From Akkermansia muciniphila (GTDB lineage Bacteria; Verrucomicrobiota; Verrucomicrobiia; Verrucomicrobiales; Akkermansiaceae): a stretch of 64,000 nt of DNA. Of this stretch, positions 56,815-61,193 are shown piece after piece. Numbering within the stretch: the first letter of the stretch is position 1; each line of letters begins with the position of its first letter. The notes under the pieces were generated by a model. The model made no database searches and had not been told where the DNA came from. It saw nothing but the letters and a program-made list of their open reading frames with translations. The stretch spans positions 62,001-126,000 of the forward strand of contig CAMDCV010000005.1 in assembly GCA_945890645.1 (NCBI GenBank), written 5' to 3'. A program made the position numbers and the translations under genes.

Positions 56815-57444
56815 ATGCAGCAGAAGCGTTTTCTCATTCAAGCCATCGCGGCCATCGTCGTGATTTGGCTCATTGTTTTCAGCATTCGTTCCTGGGCCGG
56901 ATCGAAAAAAATCACTGCCGAACGCATTCAAAAGGAAATCGCCGCCGCGTCATTCGCCGACTGGTCCAACGCTGAGTCCTACGATGCCGGCACCGCCAAA
57001 AAGCGAGAAGAAAAAATCCGCGAGATCGCCGATCTCACCAACCGCCTCGATTTCAGCGAGCGCGAAAAGAACCGTGAAAACCGCAGCGGGGAAGCCTTTT
57101 TCCGCGTGCTCAGCCCAGACGAACGCAGTTTATTCATCGAACTCACCGTCGCCGAGAGCATGAATAAATTTATGCAAGCCCTCGATCAAATGCCGCCTGC
57201 CGATCGTCAACGCTTCGTCAAACAAGGGCTCGAAGAAATCGAAAAAGGCAAAACCGCCGAGGATATTGAACGCACACGCGAATTCGGTGACGACGTGGTG
57301 GAAAAAATCACACAGGAAGGCATGCGCGCGTATTTTGAAAAGGCCAGCGTCGATACCAAGCTCGATCTCGCTCCGCTCATGGAATCGATGAACGAAGTCA
57401 TGCAAGGCCTGCGTGGCAATCGTTTCGGCCCACCGCAACGATGA
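56815..57444 (+). CDS. Membrane-anchored helical protein of unknown function
   Basis: The family was not recognised. The 209-residue product has a short basic start (MQQKRF), one transmembrane helix (about 8-26, IQAIAAIVVIWLIVFSI) and a soluble, highly charged, mostly helical remainder rich in Glu, Lys and Arg. The start at 56815 gives a normal signal anchor; an upstream in-frame Met at 56776 would add 13 residues. Its stop overlaps the pseudopilin start (ATGA), so the two may be co-translated, which hints at a role in pilus or secretion assembly, but this is inference only. Confidence 0.6.
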   Translation: MQQKRFLIQAIAAIVVIWLIVFSIRSWAGSKKITAERIQKEIAAASFADWSNAESYDAGTAKKREEKIREIADLTNRLDFSEREKNRENRSGEAFFRVLSPDERSLFIELTVAESMNKFMQALDQMPPADRQRFVKQGLEEIEKGKTAEDIERTREFGDDVVEKITQEGMRAYFEKASVDTKLDLAPLMESMNEVMQGLRGNRFGPPQR

Positions 57445-58058
57445 GAACCATGAGGAAGCAGCTTCACTCAACGGAAAGGAGCACAGGCGTCTCGCCTGTG
57501 TTTCAATCTCCCTTCACAGGCAAGATGCCTGTGCTCCTTTCTTCGTCCCGTCGCGGCTTCACCTTGGTCGAGGTCCTTGTTGTCATCGGCATCATCGTAG
57601 CGCTTACCGCTTTGATCGTCCCGATCAGCCTCTCGATGATCGCCAAATCCCGCCAAGCCGCGTGCCTCAGCAATCTCCGCCAAATCGGCGTGGGCGTGGA
57701 ATCGTATTTGCAGGACAATAACAACACCATGCCCAACCTCGCCGCCGGACGTAAATCTCGCAACGAAGACATCGCGGTAATGGAAAATACTCTCAACGCC
57801 TATCTCGAAAGCGAAGAAGTCTTCCACTGCCCCGAAGACAAAACCTTGTTTGCTGAATCAGGATCGAGCTACTTGTGGAACTCCACGCAAAGCAACCGCA
57901 ATCGCGAGCAACTTGTATTTTTCAACATCAAGGGCGATTCCTCGCGCGTGCCCATCGTCACCGACAAGGAAGCCTGGCACCCCGGTGAGTCGGGCGTGAA
58001 CATTCTTTATGCCGATTACTCCGCCAGCAAGGAATTCAAATTCATCACCTCTCCGTAA
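57441..58058 (+). CDS. Type IV pilin-like/pseudopilin protein with unusually long leader
   Basis: The prepilin N-terminus RRGFTLVEVLVVIGIIVALTA gives the cleavage site between G39 and F40 and the conserved Glu at mature position 5 (E44). The hydrophobic helix is followed by a small soluble domain (CLSNLRQIGVGVESYLQDNNNTMP; CPEDKTLF) typical of the DUF1559/type II pseudopilin-like proteins of PVC bacteria. Counted from 57441 the leader is 39 residues, most of it encoded by a palindromic repeat (57474-57541). An in-frame ATG at 57525 inside that repeat would give a normal 11-residue leader and may be the true start. The enzyme for cleavage is encoded at 5956. Confidence 0.8.
   Translation: MRTMRKQLHSTERSTGVSPVFQSPFTGKMPVLLSSSRRGFTLVEVLVVIGIIVALTALIVPISLSMIAKSRQAACLSNLRQIGVGVESYLQDNNNTMPNLAAGRKSRNEDIAVMENTLNAYLESEEVFHCPEDKTLFAESGSSYLWNSTQSNRNREQLVFFNIKGDSSRVPIVTDKEAWHPGESGVNILYADYSASKEFKFITSP
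57474..57541. repeat. Nested palindromic repeat inside the pseudopilin leader
   Basis: Two 27-nt arms (57474-57500 and 57515-57541) are inverted copies with two mismatches. Each arm is itself a near-perfect hairpin: CACAGGCG / CGCCTGTG in the left and CACAGGCA / TGCCTGTG in the right. The 14-nt middle is TTTCAATCTCCCTT. It sits inside a coding frame, so it is read as Ser-Thr-Gly-Val-Ser-Pro-Val ... Gly-Lys-Met-Pro-Val. Confidence 0.8.
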
Positions 58059-59827: not shown

Positions 59828-59860
59828 TTTTTGTTAGATGTATTTTTCCTAACTGTTTTC
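59828..59860. other. Short spacer with imperfect inverted repeat
   Basis: GTTAG and CTAAC flank a T-rich centre here. It may end the ABC transcript, but the stem is only 5 bp and the case is weak. Confidence 0.3.
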
Positions 59861-60083
59861 AAACGGCAACGCCGTTTCCCAGTAAAGCCTAGGGTTGGCC
59901 GCGTAGCGGACTACCCTAGGCTGCTCGTTATCAAAAATCTTCTTCAACCTTGAAAAGGTTGCCTAGTGGCGTTTGCGCATCGATAGCGAATAACAATAGG
60001 CAACCCGCTTCGGGGTTGGAAATTTTTTGAGTCATTCATTACCCAAGCAACCTTGGGCTAGAATAGGAAACCTCGTTGAGGTT
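59861..60083 (+). repeat. Composite hairpin repeat, copy 1
   Basis: The copy is 223 bp. It starts with AAACGGC-AAC-GCCGTTT (59861-59877) and contains a stem around CCTAGGGTTGG ... CTACCCTAGG, then CAACCTT-GAA-AAGGTTG, the CAACCC..GGGGTTG hairpin, CCCAAG..CTTGGG and AACCTC-GTT-GAGGTT at the end. Relative to copy 2 it lacks 14 bp (GTAGCCCATACGGG) inside the CCCAAG/CTTGGG stem. Confidence 0.85.
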
Positions 60084-60135
60084 TTGGGAATTGTGATGCA
60101 AACTCCGATTTATAAAAAAATCATTGAGTGATCTA

Positions 60136-60371
60136 AAACGGCAACGCCGTTTCCTCGTATAGCCCAGGGTTGAACGCGAAGCGGGCTACCCTGGGTTGCT
60201 GATAATCAAAATCTTCTTCAACCTTGAAAAGGTTGCCTAGTGGCGTTAGTGCATTGAGACCCAATGACAATAGGCAACCCACTTCGGGGTTGAATAATTT
60301 TTTGAGGAATCTTTGACCCAAGGTAGCCCATACGGGCAACCTTGGGCTAGAGTAGGAAACCTCGTTGAGGT
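60136..60371 (+). repeat. Composite hairpin repeat, copy 2
   Basis: The 236-bp copy has the same order of hairpins as copy 1 with a few base changes, and the full CCCAAGGTAGCCCATACGGG motif. It ends 15 bp from the transposase stop. AACGGC/GCCGTT, CAACCTT/AAGGTTG and AACCTC/GAGGTT are perfect arms. Confidence 0.85.
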
Positions 60372-60386
60372 ATGATTACATTGTAA

Positions 60387-60842
60387 TTATTCCCATACAT
60401 AACGTTCATCGTACGGGATCTTATATTTTTCGAGAAAGGCTCGATACTCTTCTTGAAAGCTACGTTTGCGATGATGTTCCTCTTGCTGGTTGATGTAAGA
60501 AATCACCTGCGGTGTTTCCAACTGACCCACGGAAAACGCACCATAACCTCCTTGCCACGAGAACTGTTGCTGAATTGGTTCATGCTCTTTGATCCAGAGA
60601 CTAGAGGCGCGTTTGATATCTCTAACGAGATCCGCAACTGTCATCGTTCTTGGCAACACGAAACACAAATGAACGTGATCTTCGACCCCGCCCACCGCCA
60701 GTGCATGTCCCCCTTTTTCATTAATCAAACCTCCCAGATACCGATGAAGTTCCGAACGCAAGGATGCATTCTTCAAATAAGGCTCGCGATGCGCCGTAGA
60801 AAAAATCAAATGCACGAGAAGATTCGAGAGTGACTGGGGCAT
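60387..60842 (-). CDS. REP-associated tyrosine transposase (IS200/IS605-like, Y1 HUH)
   Basis: RAYTs are single-strand DNA transposases related to TnpA of IS200/IS605 and act on REP hairpins. The 151-residue protein begins MPQSLSNLLVHLIFSTAHRE and has the HUH metal motif in EDHVHL (H56, H58), SWQGGYGAFSV, the catalytic-Tyr region ISYINQQEEHHRK (Y116 as the likely nucleophile) and the ending KIPYDERYVWE. All catalytic residues look intact. A Met at 60857 is an alternative start. It is flanked by composite repeats on both sides, its presumed substrates. Confidence 0.88.
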   Translation of the reverse strand: MPQSLSNLLVHLIFSTAHREPYLKNASLRSELHRYLGGLINEKGGHALAVGGVEDHVHLCFVLPRTMTVADLVRDIKRASSLWIKEHEPIQQQFSWQGGYGAFSVGQLETPQVISYINQQEEHHRKRSFQEEYRAFLEKYKIPYDERYVWE

Positions 60843-60930
60843 GGTTTTATTTCCCACATCGCCCAGGCGGAGGCAATCACGGATTTAAGGTGGTGCATCG
60901 TCGGGGGAGCTTTCATATTTGTCTATCGAT
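60843..60930. other. Spacer between transposase start and copy 3
   Basis: This 88-bp stretch must carry the transposase promoter on the minus strand. No promoter boxes or hairpins were picked with confidence. Confidence 0.3.
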
Positions 60931-61170
60931 AAACGGCAACGCCGTTTCCTCGTATAGCCCAGGGTTGGACGCGTAGCGGACTACCCTGGGTTGCTCGTCA
61001 CCAAAGCATTCTTCTACCTTGAAAAGGTTGCCTAAAGGCGATCGCGCATCGATACCCAATCACATGAGGCAACCCACTTCGGGGTTGGAAATTTTTGGGG
61101 GGGATTGATTACCCAAGGTAGCCCCAGACAGGGCAACCTTGGGCTTTACTAGGAAACCTCTTTGAGGTTT
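60931..61170 (+). repeat. Composite hairpin repeat, copy 3
   Basis: The 240-bp copy starts AAACGGC-AAC-GCCGTTT (60931-60947) and ends AAACCTC-TTT-GAGGTTT (61154-61170). The internal element reads GTAGCCCCAGACAGGGC, so it carries the motif missing from copy 1, with a different loop. It is the most diverged copy. It ends 23 bp before the stop of the YgiC-like gene. Confidence 0.85.
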
Positions 61171-61193
61171 TTGGGAAATTGACGGCCAAACCC

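Follow-up and report, generated by a model that had tools for sequence, protein, structure and literature searches.

Paired triple-hairpin arms around a subclass 1.2 TnpA gene in Akkermansia muciniphila, read as REPIN-like derivatives of an IS200/IS605-type element

The repeats surrounding a tyrosine transposase gene in a 64,000-nucleotide stretch of Akkermansia muciniphila DNA (hereafter the window) are pairs of inverted arms, each arm about 100 nt long and composed of three hairpins (H1, H2 and H3). Comparison among genomes indicates that these arms go with the gene, that their stems are restored by compensatory change and that the window site is empty in a relative. The paired arms are best read as non-autonomous, REPIN-like units derived from an element of the IS200/IS605 type whose ends carry three hairpins each. 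We consider it probable that the copies are gene-less mobile units of the REPIN/MITE type, built from both ends of an IS200/IS605-related element and moved by TnpA.

A first-pass annotation of the window had described three direct copies of a repeat with five or six hairpins in a fixed order. The copies are present where it placed them (59861-60084, 60136-60373 and 60931-61170), as is every hairpin that it named. The six hairpins do occur in order, but they group as two inverted three-hairpin arms and not as a single array, since a profile based solely on left arms recovers each of the three right arms, on the minus strand (44.7, 40.6 and 20.5 bits). Scored with the arm model R1, unit 1 comprises a left arm (H1-H2-H3) at 59861..59964 on the plus strand (91.8 bits) and an inverted right arm with a shortened H2 at 59998..60084 on the minus strand (68.3 bits). 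Unit 2 has its left arm at 60136..60238 (plus strand, 99.8 bits; covariation on alignment A2, below), with H1 at 60136-60152, H2 at 60163-60195 and H3 at 60219-60235, and its inverted right arm at 60272..60373 (minus strand, 86.7 bits). Unit 3 combines a left arm at 60931..61033 (plus strand, 95.4 bits) with an inverted right arm at 61067..61170 (minus strand, 87.6 bits). The transposase gene, tnpA (60387..60857, minus strand, with an ATG start at 60842), has units 1 and 2 to its left and unit 3 to its right, and thus stands between complete units rather than between inward-facing arms, the rarer layout among two-sided loci (3 of 33). The 1.3-kb locus holds seven perfect hairpins with a stem of at least 7 and a loop of 3-6, whereas the rest of the window (62.7 kb) has 14. 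As single-stranded DNA, unit 2 folds at -57.9 kcal/mol; dinucleotide-shuffled versions reach -28.8 +/- 3.7 (z = -7.9), and the z value stays at about -7.9 whichever strand is taken.

From the outside inwards, the left half of a window unit consists of H1 (AAACGGC-AAC-GCCGTTT), which forms the outer edge; H2 (CCCAGGGT...ACCCTGGG), which is longer and whose stem has a conserved mismatch between two pyrimidines; and the inner H3 (CAACCTT-GAA-AAGGTTG). The right half, once reverse-complemented, presents the same series of hairpins with different stems (AAACCTC, CCCAAGGT and CAACCC). Left arms of the window resemble one another (0.87-0.89), and right arms one another (0.74-0.83), more than left arms resemble right arms (0.58-0.70), so that the unit, like a transposable element, has distinct left and right ends.

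Alignment A2, which comprises 33 arms from about 20 genomes, contains double compensatory changes in 14 of its 22 pairs, with 93.6% of cells paired and a covariation score of 0.329, compared with 0.112 for shuffled and 0.03-0.12 for slid alignments. Stem changes are two-sided in 80 cases and one-sided in four, and G-U-type intermediates are almost absent, which suggests that the stems are kept as paired DNA more than as RNA; the substitution pattern thus argues for selection of the stems as paired DNA, maintained by compensatory change. The single mismatch in the H2 stem is T.T in 29 of the 33 A2 arms. A second set of 70 scorable arms from outside A2 has T.T in 37, C.C in 10 and another pyrimidine pair in four, and a short perfect hairpin takes the place of the mismatched H2 in 13. 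Cleavage of E. coli REPs requires a bulge in their stem (PMC8266576), and by analogy the H2 mismatch may be read by the enzyme. Rfam searches at relaxed and gathering thresholds returned no match beyond sub-threshold chance ones.

The transposase is intact, as first described: the ORF at 60387-60857 on the minus strand matches Y1_Tnp (PF01797, E = 9.4e-23) and carries both the HVH motif and Y116 of an HUH tyrosine transposase. Its designation as a RAYT, on the other hand, is not supported. The protein scores 20.9 bits with NF047646 (NCBIfam REP_Tyr_transposase), below the curated cut-off of 80, and has Y---Q--HH instead of the class 2 motif Y---NP, which occurs in 0 of 103 proteins examined. 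It passes NF033573 (NCBIfam IS200 transposase) with 60.2 bits against a cut-off of 55, and the closest solved structures in the PDB are TnpA proteins of the IS200/IS605 type, including ISHp608; by score and structure matches it is therefore nearer to IS200 TnpA than to TnpA_REP. The window motifs EDHVH, SWQ and YINQQEEHH, in a protein of about 150 aa, correspond to the signature of TnpA_Y1 subclass 1.2 (DH[IV]H, WQ, Y---Q--HH; PMC6006769), and Y---Q--HH is found in 101 of the 103 relatives collected. On motifs and profile scores, the enzyme is a subclass 1.2 TnpA, an IS200-like HUH transposase, and not a canonical RAYT. This subclass was described as occurring mostly in Cyanobacteria and Bacteroidetes, was given no REP partner and was said to be generally without the typical terminal structures of IS200 (Quentin et al., 2018, PMC6006769).

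The repeat also occurs beyond the window locus. A DNA search of the genome with the 240-bp unit recovers three full-length copies, all of them in the window, and badly undercounts the family because the stems diverge, so that a covariance model is needed. With the arm model, the same genome yields 23 arms, which make up seven complete units (three in the window and four elsewhere) and nine further arms. Across 60 genomes of the family, the matches listed place arms in 27 and the gene in 31; both are present in 21, arms only in six, the gene only in 10 and neither in 23 (Fisher p = 3e-4, with genomes treated without correction for phylogeny). Arms in these genomes total at least 254, and copies do not prevail where the gene is missing: among the 254 arms listed, 245 lie in gene-bearing genomes, and the six arm-only genomes account for the other nine, with at most three each. 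The absence of an R1 arm from 10 of the 31 gene-bearing genomes indicates that those genes have other partners or none.

Several further observations concern the same genome (G000). Single arms on contigs C22, C18, C13 and C16 (L284, L286, L287 and L289) join an H1 of the window family to another H3-like hairpin (CCGCCCCGC..GCGGGGCATGGCG) and apparently form a second subfamily. Additional intact subclass 1.2 genes at L020 (G000:C28:18537-18983) and L021 (G000:C47:11101-11550) carry different sets of hairpins in their flanks (GTGTCGC/CCGTGGGT/CACCGC; CGTCCC/CCCGCGG), which points to several such systems in one genome. Just past the end of the window, near the contig end, lies a second gene of subclass 1.2, whose coding sequence is divided between two reading frames (G000:C5:126917-127344). 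Within the window, two CACAGGC-N5-GCCTGTG palindromes (57482-57500 and 57515-57533) lie in frame (STGVSPV..TGKMPV) at the start of a pilin-like ORF (57441-58058); genome-wide this pattern occurs nine times, against 0 for a reversed-pattern control, and some occurrences are paired about 33 bp apart.

Subclass 1.2 genes are common in Verrucomicrobiota and Planctomycetota, where they are flanked by triple-hairpin arms. Around 105 such genes from Verrucomicrobiota, hairpins with a stem of at least 7 occur at 4.03/kb within 300 bp, compared with 0.47/kb at 700-1300 bp and 0.32/kb in shuffled sequence. At least one is present at 89 of the 105 loci, and the upstream flank resembles the downstream flank at 81 of 102 loci, compared with 0 in shuffled nulls. 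Control flanks of recA contain 0.5 hairpins/kb, with a hairpin at 8 of 30 loci and similar flanks at 0 of 30, so that hairpin density beside subclass 1.2 genes is about eight times that of recA flanks. A GTDB-wide scan with protein alignment A1 returned 80 loci (patterns based on a single protein were too specific and matched nothing), and those outside Verrucomicrobiota have 3.9 hairpins/kb. R1, which was built partly from gene-adjacent arms and whose cross-phylum gene-flank counts are for that reason partly circular, unlike the genome-wide and hairpin-density counts, detects an arm at 58 of these 80 loci and one arm in 114 kb of recA surroundings. Where arms lie on both sides of the gene, the order is arm, gene, inverted arm in 28 of 33 loci, with H3 adjoining the gene. 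That the array and the transposase belong together, which the first-pass annotation had deduced from position, is upheld by this arrangement and by the predominance of arms in gene-bearing genomes.

Loci from Bacteroidetes are rich in hairpins yet contain almost no R1 arm, which implies that their arms differ. In other lineages, L120/L121 and L142/L143 follow, as seen by eye, the plan H1-H2-H3-gene-H3-H2-H1 with unrelated sequences. Similarity to the window arms correlates weakly but really with enzyme identity (rho = 0.26; far control, 0.07), and a metaprofile of hairpin positions gave broad peaks only. At four loci (L073, L213, L218 and L221, with the gene at about 1500-1950, 2001-2450, 863-1312 and 2001-2450, respectively), subclass 1.2 genes lie within type I restriction-modification loci and have on either side hsdS-like pieces (xPLPPLxxQRRIVAE) recognized by eye from translations only; the flanking hairpins there correspond, in the upstream frame, to its C-terminal tail ANGAPPSQPGATPQ. 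L213 and L218, which share 90.8% identity over 946 bp, were considered as copies of a transposed element and then dropped because their shared flanks encode hsdS-like sequence. Subclass 1.2 genes in such restriction loci might help to shuffle specificity genes.

Comparison of copies and their flanks shows that both arm pairs and whole elements are mobile. One genome (G018) carries two arm-tnpA-arm' copies of 745 bp that are 95.7% identical and have unrelated flanks; apart from nine shared bases on the left (TGGATGGGA), homology stops at the outer edges of H1. About 40 to 60 or more single arms in this genome match from arm edge to arm edge, and most lie far from a gene. Another genome (G034) contains eight gene-less units in mostly unrelated flanks. 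The earlier proposal that the multi-hairpin unit spreads as one piece is supported. The arms of the seven units that were compared resemble those of the gene-bearing element end for end (LE-LE 0.80, RE-RE 0.77, LE-RE 0.69). At the window locus, the intergenic insertion as a whole spans 59828..61193. In the sister species G001 the same two neighbour genes are separated by 98 bp instead of 1,366, a syntenic empty site without the whole insertion; this one comparison, which does not by itself prove direction, makes a gain here more likely than a loss in G001. Outside the arms, we found neither a conserved GTAG/GTGG foot nor a target or cleavage tetranucleotide common to the units; CTACC occurs solely within H2.

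The distribution of single arms in G018 is uneven. Most of those in this 4.3-Mb genome fall within about 215 kb of a 1.18-Mb contig (G018:C2, at about 274-489 kb; L294-L300 and L346-L350), at roughly one arm per 3-5 kb and in both orientations, with few elsewhere. The clustering may reflect local hopping or an island; an integron/attC reading of the region was rejected because the arms point both ways.

The complete element takes the form arm, subclass 1.2 tnpA, inverted arm. A TnpA dimer acting on single-stranded DNA would probably recognize the hairpins of both arms and cut at the outer foot of H1 or close to it, so that the DNA enclosed by two arms would be moved, either with the gene, as in the complete element, or without it, as in the window units. 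We infer that this TnpA binds the arms, cleaves them as single-stranded DNA, makes use of the H2 mismatch and moves these units. The tandem layout of the window, with the gene between units, is BIME-like and could arise by recombination between arms.

The first-pass annotation had considered the repeat unlike the known systems. It is less alien than that: REPINs (PMC3116915) and BIMEs (PMC2817692) are likewise laid out as a palindromic element in two inverted copies, there with one hairpin per half, and are thought to be moved by class 2 RAYTs. Three hairpins per half and the other class of enzyme do remain unusual. As with the REPINs or BIMEs and RAYTs of E. coli and Pseudomonas fluorescens SBW25, there are inverted palindromic halves around a short spacer, dispersed without the gene (seven units in the window's own genome, eight in G034), a Y1 transposase gene among the copies, and compensatory stem changes. 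Unlike in those systems, a half of the window type comprises three covarying hairpins over about 100 nt instead of a single hairpin of 20-40 nt, the enzyme belongs to subclass 1.2 and not to class 2, the GT[AG]G foot is not seen and the gene-bearing element is mobile. IS200/IS605 elements (IS608, ISDra2; TnpA subclass 1.1) share the HUH and tyrosine motifs, hairpins at both ends and movement of the gene-bearing element as a unit, seen here in one genome (G018). They differ in having one subterminal hairpin per end, whereas here there are three, the ends are inverted repeats of one another, no target tetranucleotide was identified and copy number is low. The window enzyme and its relatives bear the DH[IV]H, WQ and Y---Q--HH motifs of subclass 1.2 but depart from its description (PMC6006769) in the triple-hairpin arms that flank the gene and in their frequency in Verrucomicrobiota and Planctomycetota.

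Two further groups invite comparison. PATEs of Haloquadratum are gene-less derivatives of the IS605 type with one palindrome near each end (PMC3119063); they too have ends resembling those of gene-bearing elements, but lack the terminal inverted repeats that the inverted triple-hairpin ends form here. TIRtrons, as described by Di Nocera et al. (2013, PMC3733652), combine a transposase gene with inverted repeats that are long and in part self-complementary, and the tyrosine transposase gene described here is likewise flanked. By the same account, TIRYTs keep the motifs that set RAYTs apart from the bulk of IS200 transposases; the window enzyme, without the RAYT Y---NP, differs from them by motif description, and the TIRs were compared by description only. 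We found no description of three-hairpin arms, of a DNA partner for subclass 1.2 or of DNA binding or cleavage by this subclass in the literature searched, which included few subscription journals and makes this weak evidence.

Other explanations of the locus were weighed against this reading. It is unlikely that tnpA merely inserted among hairpin arrays that predate it as independent repeats or that attract insertions as favoured landing sites. The window gene does lie between units and not inside one, six of the 27 arm-bearing family genomes have arms without the gene, and the arms of G018 are mostly single and gene-distant; against this, the gene stands exactly between two inward-facing arms in most two-sided loci, gene and arms were duplicated together in G018, the arms of the gene-less G034 units correspond end for end to those of the gene-bearing element, and arm-only genomes contribute only 9 of the 254 arms listed.

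An ordinary class 2 RAYT with BIME/REPIN repeats that are simply longer seems quite improbable, although the REPIN/REPtron layout (PMC3116915, PMC2817692) likewise consists of dispersed inverted pairs with a Y1 transposase close by and the conserved H2 mismatch recalls the E. coli REP bulge (PMC8266576). Y---NP is missing from 103 of 103 proteins, NF047646 stays below its cut-off, no conserved GTAG/GTGG foot adjoins the arms, each half has three hairpins, and whole gene-bearing elements are mobile here, whereas mobility of the class 2 gene itself, tnpA_REP, has not been seen (PMC8266576). It is also quite improbable that the arms are transcribed structures, such as terminators, attenuators or a structured non-coding RNA controlling the neighbouring genes. 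The hairpins do lie at gene ends, where they would be transcribed, and REPs are believed to act at the mRNA level in certain hosts (PMC3733652). The arms nevertheless have no Rfam match at gathering scores, changes on both sides of a stem outnumber one-sided ones (e.g., G-C to G-U) with pairing kept as in DNA, and arms occur in both orientations, the dispersed units standing in unrelated flanks.

The reading of the units as REPIN-like derivatives of an IS200/IS605-type element would supply, in several phyla, a DNA partner for an enzyme subclass whose 2018 description left it without one. It would also account for one class of hairpin repeats found between genes in Verrucomicrobiota and Planctomycetota. 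We lean slightly towards the broader view that subclass 1.2 TnpA proteins are, as a rule, the transposases of widespread and undescribed elements with inverted triple-hairpin ends, whose emptied derivatives would disperse in REPIN-like form and whose ends would be marked for the enzyme by the conserved H2 pyrimidine mismatch. Such elements would offer an intermediate between an insertion sequence, in which gene and ends travel together, and a REPtron, in which only gene-less inverted pairs do so, and the question of how domesticated RAYT/REP systems emerged from IS200 elements would thereby become testable.
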